A stretch of 64,000 bases of DNA from Ruminococcus sp. (lineage in GTDB: Bacteria; Bacillota; Clostridia; Oscillospirales; Ruminococcaceae). Shown piece after piece: positions 31,011 through 42,254 of the stretch. Numbering within the stretch: position 1 is the stretch's first letter; each line of letters starts with the position of its first letter. The notes under the pieces are model-generated. The model was not told the origin of the DNA and did no database searches. It saw only the letters and a list, made by a program, of their open reading frames with translations. The stretch spans positions 1 to 64,000 of the forward strand of contig NZ_JAFUAG010000029.1 of NCBI RefSeq assembly GCF_017464355.1, given 5' to 3'. Made by a program: the position numbers and the translations under genes.

Positions 31011-31227
31011 AACATAGCACACGGTCACACGTCATGCTAAAAGAGCGCAGGATATCCCCGTACTCCCTCGCAAGAAGCATAACACATACAGTGCTCGGTA
31101 TTACAGCCGCCCGGTTTAAAATCGGACATACTCCGCGGAAATTACCTGACCAACTGTCAGCAACCTTCCGTTTCATCGCATATCATTCGCGTATCGTAAA
31201 GATACACATTGCAGTCATGCAAGTATT

Positions 31228-36440: not shown

Positions 36441-37448
36441 TCAAACGGAAGAGTGGTTCTTCACATAATCTACCACGTCATCAACGGTGGTGAATGCCAT
36501 GCTTACGCAGGTATCTGCGCAGCCGTAGTAGATAGCGATCCTGCCTGTGTCAGCGTCTACCAGTGTAGCGCAGGGGAATGTTACGTTCTGTACGTCGCCT
36601 ACGCACTCATAGATCTTCTGGGGGCTCAGCAGGTACTCAGCACATCTGTACTTTACCTTCCAGGGCTCGTCCTTGTCCAGTATGCAGGCGGAGAAGCTGT
36701 AAACGAAGCCGTTGCAGCTTTCCAGAACGCCGTGGTAGAAGCACAGCCAGCCCTCGCTGGTCTCTATCGGGATAGGACCTGCGCCTATCTTCTTGGACTC
36801 CCATGCCTTCAGGGGTCCCATAACGTGTCTGTGCTCGCCCCAGTACTTCATATCGGGAGACTGGGAGATATACATATCACCGAAAGGTGTGTGGCCGCTG
36901 TCAGAGGGTCTGGAGAACATTACGAACTTGTCATTGATCTTTCTGGGGAACAGCACGCCGTTTCTGTTGAAGGGCAGGAATGCGTTCTCGCACTGATAGA
37001 AAGTCTTGAAATCAAAGGTGTAGCCTACACCGATAGTGGGCTTCCAGCCGTAAGCGTTGCACCAGGTCACCCAGAACCTGTCCTCGATAAAGCATACTCT
37101 GGGGTCATAGCCGTAGCCCCACTGGTTAACCTCCTCGGTAGACTTTTCAGCCTGCTCGAACACGATCCTGTCAGGGTCGATGTTCCAGTGGATACCGTCC
37201 TCGGAGAAGCCTGCGTGCAGCTCCATGTTCCTTACCTTGTCGTCAACACGGAACACACCTGCGAAGTGGCCCTTGTCGCTCTCAAAGGGAACGACAGCGC
37301 TGTTGAAGATAGAGTTTGAGGTAGGCAGAAGGTCTCTGGGGATTATGGGGTTAGCGTCATATCTCCAGATAACGTCCTTGCAGTCTGCGGGCTTGTCCTG
37401 CCAGGGGATATTGGGCAGTGAAACGCCGTTGATGATCTGTGTTTTCAT
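36441..37448 (-). CDS. GH130 beta-1,4-mannooligosaccharide phosphorylase
   Basis: 335 aa, cytoplasmic (no signal peptide). GH130 enzymes phosphorolyse beta-mannosides to alpha-mannose 1-phosphate. The five-bladed propeller is seen from [28 protein letters not shown] through FRVDDK and [24 protein letters not shown], and [24 protein letters not shown] to [19 protein letters not shown]. The sequence closely recalls the R. albus enzyme RaMP2, which acts on mannooligosaccharides rather than mannosyl-glucose; this is from memory. The start at 37448 follows AAAGGTGG; 22 upstream codons in frame are leader. Divergent from the xyloglucanase gene. Confidence 0.93.
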
Positions 37449-37516
37449 AATGATGATCCACCTTTCGTTAATATCATGTCGAGTGTCCGCGTACACTTCG
37501 CGGTCATCTTGCATAC

Positions 37517-37545
37517 ATTATACACAATTATTGCGGATTTTGCAA
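37517..37545 (-). promoter_or_regulatory. promoter of the GH130 gene
   Basis: Minus-strand TTGCAA (37540-37545), 17 bp, TATAAT (37517-37522). Confidence 0.75.
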
Positions 37546-37581
37546 GCCCCGACGACCTTCAAGAAAACGATTAACCCTGAA

Positions 37582-37595
37582 TGAAAACGTATACT
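37582..37595. promoter_or_regulatory. cre-like site between GH130 and GH74
   Basis: TGAAAACGTATACT agrees with the catabolite-responsive element consensus TGWAARCGYTWNCW at 13 of 14 positions. It lies 37 bp upstream of the GH130 -35 box and 170 bp upstream of the GH74 -35 box. Confidence 0.5.
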
Positions 37596-37764
37596 TTTGA
37601 AAAGTTAATATATTTTTTACAATTGGCGCCGCCCTCGGAGGATATTATTTTTGCATACTGTCACTTTTGTTGCACTTTTCTGAACCTTCTCCCGCACCTG
37701 ACCCCCCTGCTGCCATGACAAAATATGCTGATATTTTAGTATATTTCATTATATTCGGATTTCG

Positions 37765-37793
37765 TTGACTTGAAGGCTGAAATATAGTATAAT
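37765..37793 (+). promoter_or_regulatory. promoter of the GH74 gene
   Basis: TTGACT (37765-37770), 17 bp, TATAAT (37788-37793), about 50 bp before the start codon. Confidence 0.82.
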
Positions 37794-37802
37794 GGGGAAA
37801 AC

Positions 37803-37819
37803 CTGTAAACGTTTTACAG
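37803..37819. promoter_or_regulatory. operator-like palindrome at GH74 transcript start
   Basis: CTGTAAA (37803-37809), CGT, TTTACAG (37813-37819): a perfect dyad about 10 bp after the -10 box. The AAACGTTT core is that of LacI-family/CcpA sites, and its position would give roadblock repression. Confidence 0.55.
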
Positions 37820-37845
37820 CAAACGACTTAAAGGGAGGAATTTTC

Positions 37846-40149
37846 ATGAGGGGTAGAAAAGCCATAGCCGCAGCCTGTGCGGCAGCAGTTTGTCTTGGTG
37901 TTATGGCAGGCTGTTCGGACAAGAAGACCGATGACAGCAAGAAAGATACTTCCGCGGCGGAGGGCACAGCTGTGACAGAAGAGAACGCATATTACAACGC
38001 TCAGCCTGTGGATACGGGCTGGGAATGGTCGAACGTTGAGATAGTCGGGGGCGGCTTTGTGCCCAACATCATCTACAACCCCACCGAGGAGGGACTGGTG
38101 TACTGCCGCACGGATATCGGCGGTGCATACAAGCTGAACAAGGAAACAAACCGTTGGGAATGCATAACTGATTTCATCGGGGGCGATGACTGGAACTACA
38201 TGGGCATTGAAAGCATTGCCACCGACCCTGTGGAGCCCAACCGCGTATACATTGCGGCGGGCACCTATTCCAGTGCGCCGGGTGCTATTTTCTATTCGGA
38301 CGACTACGGCGAGAACTGGGGCATTTTCGAGCTGCCCTTCGGCTGCGGCGGAAATGAAGTCGGCCGAGGTGCGGGAGAAAGGCTTCAGGTAGACCCCAAC
38401 GACAACTCCATAATATACTTCGGTTCAAGGGCGGACGGCCTGTGGAAGTCGGAGGACTACGGCAGGACCTGGGCTGAGGTGACAAGCTTCCCCACCAAGG
38501 GGGGCTACACCGAGGACGGCTATGCCCAGGGACTTACCTTTGTGGCCTTTGACAAATCCAGCGGTGAAGCGGGCAAGGCCACGCAGACTATCTTCGTGGG
38601 GGCGGCGGCCACCAAGGGCAACTACATCTACCGTTCGGACGACGGCGGACAGACCTGGACGGAGATAGAAAATCCTCCTGCCATTACCGCGGGGGACGAC
38701 AGGCAGCTGCTAAAACCCTGCCAGGGCGAGGTAAGCTCAGACGGTCATCTCTACACCTCATGGTCCATGAAGATAGGCCCCAACGGCGCCATGGAGGGTG
38801 CTATACAGAAGTACAACATTGCCACAGGCGAGTGGAAGGAGATATCTCCCGAGACCTCACTGACCTGCGGCTACAACGGCATATCCGTAAACCCCAATGA
38901 CCCCAACATGATAGTATGCACTACCCTTGACCTCTGGGCGATAGTGGACAACGTCTTCGTAAGCTTCGACGGCGGCGAGACCTGGGGCAGCATATGGACA
39001 AGGGACGAGGACAAGAACCGTGTTGACAACTACACCATGGATATATCCTCCAGTGAATGGCTGTTCTGGCAGGATCAGCTGAAACCCGGCTGGTGGATGA
39101 CAGGTGTGGCCATAAACCCCTTTGACCCCGATGAGATAATGTACGGCACAGGCGCCACTATCTACGGCACCACCAACCTGACCAAGGTCTTCGATGAGCC
39201 TGTGAACATCGAGGTAAGAGCCATGGGTGTGGAGGAAACGGCTATCTTTGATTTTGTTTCGCCCATGCCCAACGATGAGAACGCCCCCGACCTTTATTCT
39301 ATCATGGGGGATATCTACGGCTTCAAACACCAGGACGCAGATGTGGCGCCCAAGGAGCATTTCGGTGATTTCAAGTCCACCGACATAGACTGCGCAGCCC
39401 TTGATTACCACATAGTTGTCCGTGCCACCGATGAGGGTCCCGGGACTATCTATTATTCCACCGATGCGGCCGACACCTGGGAGGCTGTCGAAACTCTTCC
39501 CGAGGGTGTTAAAAAGGCTTCTGGCGGAACGGTAAAGCTTTCCGCTGACGGCGGTACTATACTGTATGCCGCAGGTGTGGCGGGGGCAGGTGTGTTCACC
39601 TCTGATGACTTCGGCAAAAGCTGGAGCCTCTGCGAGGGCGTGCCCTCGGCTTCCCAGATAGAGACCGACAAGGTGGACCCGAACAAGTTCTATGCTGCCT
39701 TTGACGGCACGGTATATGTCAGCACCGACAAGGGCAAAAGCTGGAAAAACCTGACCACCCTGCTGGTATCAAGCTTTACCATGCAGGCCTGCCCTGATGT
39801 TTCGGGCGACCTCTGGATAAACATTGGCTCGGGTCTTTTCCTGCTGGATACCGAAACGGGCGAGCTGACCAATATGTCAGAAAACCTCCAGGACTGCAAG
39901 GCCATAGGCTTCGGCAAGGCCGAAAAGGACGGCGATTACATGACTATCTATATGCTCGGCCAGGCCAACGAACAGGGCTTCGGTGTGTATATGTCCCGGG
40001 ATAAAGGCGCCACCTGGAAACGCATAAACGACGACGCCCACAAGTGGGGCAACGTAAACAACGTCATCTCGGGCGACCCCAAAACCTTCGGCAGAGTCTA
40101 CATCAGCACCAACGGCCGCGGCATTATCCGCGGCGATGTAAAGCAGTAA
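37846..40149 (+). CDS. GH74 xyloglucanase, surface lipoprotein
   Basis: 767 aa. The lipoprotein signal ends in VMAGC (C23), and a short D/K/S/T-rich linker follows. The rest is the tandem seven-bladed propeller pair of GH74 endo-xyloglucanases, with many Asp-box-type repeats (SDDGGQTWTE, STDKGKSWKN, SRDKGATWKR). YCRTDIGGAYK near residue 88 carries the first catalytic aspartate; the second domain has DIDCAALDY near 513. There is no dockerin, so it is tethered to the membrane rather than to a cellulosome. The ATG at 37846 follows AGGGAGG; upstream codons in frame include the promoter and are not coding. It converges on rqcH across a giant inverted repeat. Confidence 0.95.
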   Translation: MRGRKAIAAACAAAVCLGVMAGCSDKKTDDSKKDTSAAEGTAVTEENAYYNAQPVDTGWEWSNVEIVGGGFVPNIIYNPTEEGLVYCRTDIGGAYKLNKETNRWECITDFIGGDDWNYMGIESIATDPVEPNRVYIAAGTYSSAPGAIFYSDDYGENWGIFELPFGCGGNEVGRGAGERLQVDPNDNSIIYFGSRADGLWKSEDYGRTWAEVTSFPTKGGYTEDGYAQGLTFVAFDKSSGEAGKATQTIFVGAAATKGNYIYRSDDGGQTWTEIENPPAITAGDDRQLLKPCQGEVSSDGHLYTSWSMKIGPNGAMEGAIQKYNIATGEWKEISPETSLTCGYNGISVNPNDPNMIVCTTLDLWAIVDNVFVSFDGGETWGSIWTRDEDKNRVDNYTMDISSSEWLFWQDQLKPGWWMTGVAINPFDPDEIMYGTGATIYGTTNLTKVFDEPVNIEVRAMGVEETAIFDFVSPMPNDENAPDLYSIMGDIYGFKHQDADVAPKEHFGDFKSTDIDCAALDYHIVVRATDEGPGTIYYSTDAADTWEAVETLPEGVKKASGGTVKLSADGGTILYAAGVAGAGVFTSDDFGKSWSLCEGVPSASQIETDKVDPNKFYAAFDGTVYVSTDKGKSWKNLTTLLVSSFTMQACPDVSGDLWINIGSGLFLLDTETGELTNMSENLQDCKAIGFGKAEKDGDYMTIYMLGQANEQGFGVYMSRDKGATWKRINDDAHKWGNVNNVISGDPKTFGRVYISTNGRGIIRGDVKQ

Positions 40150-40485
40150 CAAAAAACAGCCCCCGCTTGAGGGGTGGTGTTCACAGAGAAATTCGTGTAT
40201 TTTATTGGGGGAAACCTTTCTGAAGAAAGGTTATCCCCCAAACCCCTTTCCAAAGACTTTTATATTTGGGGGCGAAAGGGCGCCGTACTATCGGAGTATG
40301 GCGAATGTCCGAACTCTGCGTTCTATCGCAGAATGGCACCCTTTCGCCCCCAAACGTAAAAAGTTTTAGGGAGGGGGTCTGGGGGACGACCCTTTTTCAA
40401 AAGGGTCTCCCCCAGTAAATACATAAGTTTTTCTGTGAACACCACTACCCCAAGCAGGGGCTGTTTTTGTTACTGCTTTACTTCG
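40135..40485. repeat. giant 351-bp inverted repeat between convergent genes
   Basis: The left arm (40135-40284) and right arm (40335-40485) are near-complete reverse complements with few mismatches and small gaps, around a 50-nt centre. The outer ends include the last codons and stops of both genes: each reads GTAAAGCAGTAAC, encoding VKQ-stop. Shared blocks include GTGGTGTTCACAGA and TTTGGGGGCGAAAGGG. Each arm also holds its own hairpin (GGGGGA...TCCCCC at 40207-40239; GGGGGA...TCCCCC at 40381-40412). No ORF; probably acts as a bidirectional 3' end. Confidence 0.85.
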
Positions 40486-42254
40486 AGGCTTTGCACGAGG
40501 TCTTCGTCGGGTTTAACGGTTATGGTATAGTTATGGGTAAAAATTACCATACCGGGTTTTGAGCCTGCGGGTTTCTTTACGAACTTAACGAAAGTATAGT
40601 CCACGTCGGCTCTTGAAGAAGTTTTAGCTTTGGAGTAATAGGCGGCGATGACAGCGGCCTCTTCGATAGTACGGTCTGGGGGCAGCTCATCGGGGGTGAA
40701 CTTAGCGGCCTCGCCTTTATCGGGGCAGCTGATTATCACATGGCAGCCTGTTATATCTTTAGCGTGGAGCCAGACATCGGTCTTTCTGGAGTCCTTGCAG
40801 GTCAGCCTGTCGTTCTGGGCATTATTTCTGCCCACCCTTATCTCAAAGCCCTCGCTGGAACGGAACCTCATGGGTGGCAGAGCTTTTGGGGGCTTACCTT
40901 TCGATCTGCCGCGGCTGATATAGCCCTGCTCGGTCAGCTCCTGTCTGAGGGCAGCTATATCGCCCTCGGTGCGGGCACGGGTAAGGGCATCCAGCACGGT
41001 ATCCAGGTACCTGGCTTCCTCCTCGCCTTTGGCTATCAGGTCGTTGAGGACTTTCTCGGCGGTATCCAGCTTGCGGTACTCCTTGAAATACTTCTGGGCG
41101 TTCTGCACGGGGGTCAGGCGCTTATCAAGCTTTACCGTGACCTCGGGCTGGCCTTCATCGTAGAAGTTTACAAGCTTAGCCTCGGTCATGCCTTTTTCCA
41201 GCTGATAGAGGTTGGCGGTGATAAGGTCGCCGTACTGTTTCAGCTGTTCGCGCCTGGCGCAGTCTTTCAGTTCGAGCTGCTGGTTCTTCACCCTGGACTC
41301 GGTGCGGTCTATAGTATTTGCCAGCAGCCTGAAAAGGTCCTGGGCTTTCTGGCGGGTGCGGGAGAGGCTGTCTCTTTCCGCATAGAAATAGTCCAGCAGC
41401 TGCGAGGGTGTATCAAACTGCTTTGTCACCATAAGTCCGCCGTACTGGTCGATATTGCAGAAGCAGAAATCTTTCAGCTCGCCCCCCGTGGTCTTAAGGA
41501 GGGTGTACCTGTTCTCGCCGTTTTCCAGCTGGGTGCGTATCTTTTTGATGTAGAACCAGAGCCTGTCCTTATGGTCATCGGTCATCTCCCCCACTATGAC
41601 CTCAGCGGAGTGGGAGGTGAAGAAGGCGCACTCTCTGGCAAATACGGGCGATATGCCCTGAAAGGTCTTCATAATGCCCTTGGAAAGCTCAGCCTTTGCA
41701 GACTCGGCCAGCTTTTCCTCAAACTCCTCACGGGTGCATTCCGTCAGGGATATCCTGCCGTCACCCTGAGGCAGGGTGTATATGACCCCCGGAAGTACGG
41801 GTGTTTCGGAGGTCTCTGAGGATATGCGCTTTATGCTGTCGATTATTTTTCCGTCCTTATCCATCAGCAGAAGATTTGAGCGCCTGCCCATAAGTTCCAC
41901 CGTAATGGTCAGCCTGACAATATCGCCCAGTTCGTTGGCGGCGTCAAAGTCCAGCATGATGACACGCTCGTAGTCGGGCTGCCTTATGTCCACCAGTTTA
42001 GCGGAGGACAGGTGCTTCCTCATCAGCATACAGAACATGGGCGGCTGCTTGGGGTTCTCGATATCCGCAGTGGTCAGGTGCAGCCTTGCCGTGCCCGATA
42101 CGGTGTTTATTATCAGCTTTTTCAGCCCCTCATAGGTGCGTATGGCCAGCAGCAGCTCCCCTTTTGAGGGCTGGTGTATCTTATCCACTCTGCCGCCCAC
42201 CAGGGGCATAAGTTCCTTTTTTATCTCGCTCAGGAAAACTCCGTCAAGCGCCAT
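40470..42254 (-). CDS. rqcH: RqcH / NFACT family ribosome-quality-control protein
   Basis: 594 aa, the bacterial homolog of Rqc2/NEMF (older name FbpA). It binds stalled 50S-peptidyl-tRNA and recruits alanyl-tRNA to add C-terminal alanine tails for degradation. The NFACT-N domain begins MALDGVFLSEIKKELMPLVGGRVDKIHQPS. The GRRSNLLLMD motif lies near 125, a long coiled coil covers about 290-430, and the NFACT-R domain has DVWLHAKDITGCHVII near 510. Normal length. Last gene of the tatD operon, 24 bp after the Nudix gene. Confidence 0.96.
   Translation of the reverse strand: MALDGVFLSEIKKELMPLVGGRVDKIHQPSKGELLLAIRTYEGLKKLIINTVSGTARLHLTTADIENPKQPPMFCMLMRKHLSSAKLVDIRQPDYERVIMLDFDAANELGDIVRLTITVELMGRRSNLLLMDKDGKIIDSIKRISSETSETPVLPGVIYTLPQGDGRISLTECTREEFEEKLAESAKAELSKGIMKTFQGISPVFARECAFFTSHSAEVIVGEMTDDHKDRLWFYIKKIRTQLENGENRYTLLKTTGGELKDFCFCNIDQYGGLMVTKQFDTPSQLLDYFYAERDSLSRTRQKAQDLFRLLANTIDRTESRVKNQQLELKDCARREQLKQYGDLITANLYQLEKGMTEAKLVNFYDEGQPEVTVKLDKRLTPVQNAQKYFKEYRKLDTAEKVLNDLIAKGEEEARYLDTVLDALTRARTEGDIAALRQELTEQGYISRGRSKGKPPKALPPMRFRSSEGFEIRVGRNNAQNDRLTCKDSRKTDVWLHAKDITGCHVIISCPDKGEAAKFTPDELPPDRTIEEAAVIAAYYSKAKTSSRADVDYTFVKFVKKPAGSKPGMVIFTHNYTITVKPDEDLVQSLEVKQ

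Follow-up and report, generated by a model that had tools for sequence, protein, structure and literature searches.

A dispersed palindromic repeat of Ruminococcus that probably sits in the loops of bidirectional transcription terminators

Between two convergent genes in the 64,000-nt window that we analyzed from a Ruminococcus genome lies a giant inverted repeat. This repeat belongs to a dispersed family of palindromes, of which it is one copy, and is no one-off duplication of gene ends. With a probability of about 0.7, we read positions 40172 to 40450 as a MITE-like, non-coding palindrome of Ruminococcus and related genera, seated in the apical loop of a bidirectional intrinsic terminator. 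The reading is carried by the family itself, with its anatomy and its location, by element-free sites in relatives and by the terminator that reappears once the element is removed from the sequence. The features of the window are as follows.

40134 to 40485, no strand: whole palindrome, made of the element, the mirrored host terminator halves and the gene ends (arm alignment and RNA fold)
40172 to 40450, a-to-b orientation on the plus strand: dispersed element proper, 279 bp, GGGTGG...CTACCC, delimited by the GGG(T/C)(G/A)G end motif common to copies, each end uncertain by about 2 nt
40207 to 40239, plus strand: local hairpin of arm a, GGGGGAAACCTTTCTGAAGAAAGGTTATCCCCC, near-invariant in its own genome, −20.8 kcal/mol
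40381 to 40413, minus strand: local hairpin of arm b, GGGGGAGACCCTTTTGAAAAAGGGTCGTCCCCC on the minus strand, −23.6 kcal/mol
40290 to 40329, no strand: central variable region between the arms (arm alignment)
40150 to 40171, no strand: left host terminator half, A-tract and CAGCCCC half-stem (joined flanks)
40451 to 40469, no strand: right host terminator half, GGGGCTG half-stem and T-tract (joined flanks)
37792 to 40149, plus strand: convergent gene 1, BNR-repeat protein ending GDVKQ-stop (ORF, Pfam, C terminus compared across relatives)
40470 to 42254, minus strand: convergent gene 2, rqcH (NFACT), ending SLEVKQ-stop (ORF, Pfam)

The arms (40134 to 40289 and 40330 to 40485, with a loop of 40 nt) are identical at 130 of 152 aligned positions, or at 128 of 154 with 4 gaps in a second scoring, and the predicted RNA fold of 40134 to 40485 is a single rod of −232.5 kcal/mol (about −233). 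The giant inverted repeat described in the initial annotation is thus real and far beyond chance; its pairing is strong, but “almost perfectly complementary” is a somewhat strong wording for an identity of about 85%. Both genes do end in VKQ-stop within the arms. As for the gene names given there, Pfam agrees with rqcH (NFACT/RqcH-like) but not with GH74, the plus-strand gene matching BNR and Sortilin-Vps10 models and no GH74 model. A long double-stranded read-through RNA from both genes, as was also proposed, would be plausible. Joined without the element, the flanks of the window copy (CAAAAAACAGCCCC...GGGGCTGTTTTTG) give a hairpin whose foot runs through both stop codons, with a predicted energy of −35.3 kcal/mol when two hinge bases are preset to TA. 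The left terminator half overlaps a weak terminator-like hairpin of the minus strand. In the window, Rfam gives a single match above gathering score, an S10-Clostridia ribosomal protein leader at 31104 to 31185 on the minus strand. In the relative G026, rqcH is directly followed by a homologue of the window gene at 36441 to 37514 (GH130 type); in the window, the BNR gene sits between this GH130-type gene and rqcH, so that the junction 36441 to 42254 is rearranged relative to G026.

A check proposed beforehand, the search for other copies, was rewarding: about 30 were found in the window’s own genome (G000; 3.48 Mb, 49 contigs). A BLAST search with the palindrome returned 75 matches, both strands of each copy being counted. 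They resolve into 22 long copies, in which both arms are present, and 9 more loci with the a hairpin, 5 of which are short forms, the rest being partial or at contig ends. Long copies measure about 280 to 310 bp and short forms about 112 bp. Each full copy holds one arm a hairpin, AACCTTTCTGAAGAAAGGTT, and one arm b hairpin, (G/A)ACCCTTTTGAAAAAGGGT(C/T); among the 22 long copies, identity is 0.99 between a hairpins, 0.93 between b hairpins and 0.83 between a and b. Since the same two distinguishable arms recur in the full copies, the palindrome was moved or copied as a unit and not remade at each site. It is short, non-coding and multicopy and has terminal inverted repeats, as expected of a MITE. 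In Rfam, the element found no match above gathering score, only weak ones far below it. Comparisons within and between copies used the 22 long copies, the 9 a-hairpin loci lacking a b match being excluded; the transition/transversion count used 26 copies, the arm-coupling and mirror tests 27, and the hinge test 33.

Mis-assembly, a hazard of such repeats named at the outset, is not the general cause, as copies sit within long contigs, including a 3.69-Mb contig of the relative G002. The family does seem to break assemblies: seven contigs of the window’s genome (C7, C19, C23, C32, C36, C37 and C42) end in or near a copy, and the ends of C37 and C32 bear matching half-terminators and may be one copy. 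At another locus (L014, G000:C3:3953-7242), two copies in the same a-b orientation, about 1.2 kb apart, enclose one gene of about 282 aa. The joined flanks of the second copy form no terminator; a composite unit is conceivable.

The outer arms typically run, from outside inwards, through an A-tract, a G/C-rich copy-specific half-stem, TA, W and the GGG end of the element. When 48 ends from G000 and G002 were aligned, TA stood at positions −3 and −2 of GGG in 28, W at −1 in 41 and A at −15 in 33. When the element is removed and the flanks are joined, most copies yield a bidirectional intrinsic terminator. To quantify this, complementary hinge bases were counted in 33 copies, 26 from G000 (including the decayed copies L045 and L046) and 7 from G002, against flanks drawn from different copies, with the same freedom for the hinge to slide in both sets. 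In 22/33 copies, versus 31/1056 mismatched flank pairings, at least 11 of 14 hinge bases were complementary; for at least 12 of 14, the figures are 18/33 versus 3/1056. Eleven copies fall below the threshold of 11. The test misplaces some ends (L002 and L210), and by eye L002, L005, L026, L028, L030 and L210 resemble split terminators with an offset hinge; the second copy of L014, L032 and L045 are below threshold and have no such look. TA lies beside many element ends, but it occurs in the loop of only 2 of 19 native terminator-like hairpins, a sample too small for judging a preference for TA.

Copies lie mostly at gene 3' ends. By a simple codon-score gene call, limited to copies flanked by two called genes, 25/30 copies in G000 lie between convergent genes and 5/30 between tandem genes, with 5 more at ends; in relatives, 10/24 are convergent, 13/24 tandem and 1/24 divergent, with 4 more at ends (raw counts in both cases). 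A second, length-based gene caller placed 23 of 28 G000 copies between convergent genes.

Beyond the core, the arms are mirrored within a copy and unlike between copies. In the 22 long copies, identity within versus between copies is 0.82 versus 0.64 at 15 to 35 nt out from the core, 0.80 versus 0.47 at 30 to 50 nt and 0.76 versus 0.53 at 40 to 60 nt; at 55 to 75 nt the match is gone (0.40 versus 0.36). Flanks past the mirrored half-terminators are thus on average unmatched; contrary to one suggestion, the element brings no gene 3' ends with it. In 27 copies, the Watson-Crick share of paired arms is 0.666, versus 0.510 (SD 0.011) when partners are permuted, and none of 2000 permutations reaches 0.666. 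Selection or arm-to-arm correction may keep these outer arms paired. Within a copy, the two arms differ mostly by transitions (transition/transversion counts of 120/6, 63/19 and 30/13 by zone, versus 845/197, 969/1123 and 458/915 between copies in the same three zones; 26 copies). This excess fits selection that keeps pairing through G-U pairs; in the outer zones, simple recent mutation would fit too. A strand bias of the G-U type was not clearly seen in the arm differences of the 26 copies.

Sites without the element were found in relatives. We set a 20-kb stretch of G000 with four copies against eight of them. At one site (L006), both flanks were present in 4 of the 8 relatives fetched, all without the element: the interval is 44 bp with one plain terminator in G004, 68 bp with one in G002, 101 bp with two in G026, and 305 bp of other hairpin-rich DNA in G018. 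At a second site (L004), both flanks were present in 4 of the 7 relatives fetched and the element in none, the intervals measuring 129 bp in G004, 100 bp in G026, 265 bp in G018 and 430 bp in G002; only some are plain terminators. The comparison of the window locus across relatives, suggested in the initial annotation, gave a concordant picture, 0 of 27 showing the palindrome by eye within 420 nt of the rqcH 3' end. The same inspection of 420 nt showed a related unit downstream of rqcH in G028 and G022 and none in G015, G020, G017, G006 and G021. Such element-free sites support insertion, and transposition may well be what spread the family. The relatives’ flanks are only about 73 to 82% identical to G000, too diverged for the exact junction or a target duplication to be read, and we therefore infer the insertion point and a duplication of TA.

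Within the genus, 21 of 29 genomes, among them the window’s own, contain matches at E 1e-6; G001, G004, G011, G012, G014, G018, G023 and G026 have no match at this threshold. A family-level sample at E 1e-5 gave matches in at least 32 of 297 genomes and at least 16 of 126 genera, lower bounds because at most two candidates were scored per genome. An exact scan for the a hairpin in named genomes returned at least 106 stretches; among the matches listed, titles name 80 Ruminococcus, 23 other Oscillospiraceae/Clostridia, 2 Planctomycetota and 1 Desulfovibrio, with R. albus AR67 and KH2T6, R. flavefaciens YRD2003, XPD3002 and MA2007, and Ruminococcus sp. YE71 among the strains. The exact a hairpin in metagenome-assembled contigs labelled as lying outside Clostridia (L285 and L351, Planctomycetota; L307, Desulfovibrio) is perhaps a matter of mis-binning. 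Two stretches in viral contigs carry the exact a hairpin; a search of plasmids and phages for the element gave no match.

Many copies fetched from relatives follow the same plan. In fetched units of the clade comprising G006, G015, G017, G020 to G022, G027 and G028, a single hairpin is often clear and the arm opposite it degraded; in L054 and L056 the outer arms match poorly. The relative whose copies match the G000 element best is G016 (L049, L232 to L239), although its rqcH is only 60% identical; either horizontal spread or strong constraint could account for this. G016 also has a different, truncated-looking copy (L120) immediately downstream of its homologous BNR gene.

These data also bear on the idea that the repeat belongs to the host, as a bidirectional “super-terminator” or RNase III processing cassette that gene conversion, and not transposition, has spread and homogenized. 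The location at 3' ends, the conservation of the core hairpins across species and the predominance of transitions between the arms of a copy all speak for such a cassette. However, its presence is patchy, eight genus genomes having no match at E 1e-6, and it is absent from orthologous sites; moreover, recent mutation would likewise give the within-copy transition/transversion ratio of 2 to 3 in the outer zones. We regard the cassette as an unlikely origin. Even an inserted palindrome may have a host function, given how conserved the core is across species.

The mirrored VKQ-stop deserves separate treatment. Past the terminator, the window copy continues in a 22-nt mirror with 21 matches, which is special to it among 27 copies: its score is 39, whereas none of 702 between-copy pairings exceeds 26 (the maximum), and the next of the 27 copies scores 23. 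In 11 of 14 relatives, the plus-strand gene has the C terminus G(D/N)VK, optionally followed by Q/K/E, and in the others it ends GDVR-stop or GDVSEG-stop; the end seen in the window is thus native. The rqcH ends of relatives vary (SLEV-stop, LENQ-stop, LELK-stop, LRVK-stop and others). Since the G(D/N)VK end is native and rqcH may end NQ-stop, LK-stop or VK-stop, partial coincidence in the mirror is possible. The earlier statement that random convergence is unlikely may hold for the mirror, given its score (39 versus 26), with the reservation that native-like ends may account for part of it. From the sequences compared, the mirror would be either a small inverted copy of the plus-strand gene end placed onto rqcH or similar native ends meeting in a long terminator foot.

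A local inverted duplication, in which a fork switched templates and copied the 3' end of one gene onto the other, draws on the same evidence. The 22-nt mirror with VKQ-stop tops all copies and controls, the native end of the plus-strand gene would make the rqcH side the copied one, and microhomology (the V-K codons GTAAAG in both genes) could have guided the switch. Nevertheless, such an event leaves the shared a/b core at about 30 places unexplained, and the ends NQ-stop, LK-stop and VK-stop in relatives mean that the mirror may be partly native. For the core, the shared a/b arms rule template switching out as the source of the whole palindrome; as an account of the repeat it is unlikely overall. 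Of the two origins first offered, template switching and an element, the second is thus retained and the first fails for most of the length, given the arms shared by 22 copies.

If the repeat is an inserted palindrome, an enzyme should have moved it. Among the Y1, DDE_3, DUF4096 and DUF772 families, no mobilizing enzyme was found in the 29 genus genomes. An IS630/mariner origin, hinted at by TA, was rejected, DDE_3 (PF13358) scoring above cut-off in 0/29 genomes, with two weak sub-cut-off matches, one in G000. An IS5-type DUF4096 partner (PF13340; 0/29) was likewise set aside. PF01797 occurs in 16/29 genomes and PF05598 in 10/29, and neither tracks the element. PF05598 (DUF772), which we take to be a marker of the IS1182 type, was discarded as partner on this ground, and because the IS loci fetched carry no element ends; the element thereby differs from IS1182-type systems. 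REPIN/BIME elements are dispersed non-coding palindromes with terminal inverted repeats, and an element of this kind moved by a RAYT (Y1) transposase would explain a palindrome in many copies at 3' ends, with no multicopy transposase seen among the families tested. However, Y1_Tnp went undetected in the element-bearing genomes G007, G009, G010, G015, G016, G019, G020, G025 and G027 (several genomes being incomplete) and is present in the element-free G001, G004, G014 and G018. In G000 there is one weak Y1 match, and element-bearing genomes do not consistently have a Y1 protein, as a RAYT partnership would require. A REPIN is thus very unlikely, and less likely than either alternative above.

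Comparison with known systems places the element among several of them. The available portions of two reports describe IS1272/TnSha1 (IS1182 family, Staphylococcus) as targeting stem-loops regardless of sequence, several of them confirmed transcription terminators, and IS1272 as carrying a transposase and deleting or replacing the target hairpin without target duplication; the stem-loop is lost on insertion of TnSha1 too (PMC4923244, PMC5678879). The targets of the Ruminococcus element are similarly stem-loops irrespective of sequence but, unlike IS1272, the element retains both half-stems (22/33 copies), is palindromic and encodes nothing. It resembles SPRITE, RUP and BOX as a small interspersed stem-loop repeat. 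The pneumococcal SPRITE is terminator-like, with 15/30 between convergent genes (PMC3049150, in part); as described there, it is one terminator-like hairpin with AAAA/TTTT ends, whereas the Ruminococcus element would split a host terminator, a separation by description and not by sequence. As with IS1397, IS621 and ISKpn1, which insert into REP palindromes (PMC1525189, in part), insertion would be aimed at short extragenic palindromes; the REP targets as described are of one sequence type and the insertion sequences have transposases, while the targets here are unrelated in sequence and share hairpin form alone. MITEs are dispersed non-coding palindromes with terminal inverted repeats (PMC10969869, in part). 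Unlike these and REPIN/BIME, the Ruminococcus element has two arms, conserved but not identical, each with its own hairpin, and half of a host terminator on each side. As far as the available descriptions go, the combination of a palindromic passenger with preserved host half-stems occurs in none of the systems compared. In the open-access PMC literature we found no recognized account of the Ruminococcus family, and the hairpin strings had no match; the available part of the RepRanger paper (PMC12306157) does not mention Ruminococcus.

We propose that the element, two diverged inverted arms a and b with a conserved local hairpin in each and ends of the form (TA)W-GGG, is a non-autonomous palindrome that would insert into terminator loops, apparently at TA, which may be the target or the duplicated site. 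Because it is itself palindromic, the half-stems and A/T tracts of a hairpin that receives it in the loop would stay in register; the product would be an extended hairpin that keeps a T-tract behind it in both directions, and termination would probably continue at filled sites. With terminator form preserved, insertion would be nearly neutral, so that copies could gather at 3' ends. A bolder version, in which the mobile palindrome recognizes the terminator loop by form and not by sequence, each insertion rebuilds a longer terminator, and an enzyme outside the tested families reads the a/b hairpins, is tentative, and we hold it at somewhat under even odds.

Terminators are usually regarded as victims of insertion. 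This repeat family seems instead to exploit terminator symmetry for harmless insertion and, if so, it would help to account for the accumulation of palindromic repeats between convergent genes. Its hosts are fibre-degrading Ruminococcus, in which many genes could gain about 300 nt of double-stranded 3' RNA. How bacterial palindromic repeats choose 3' ends thereby becomes directly testable.
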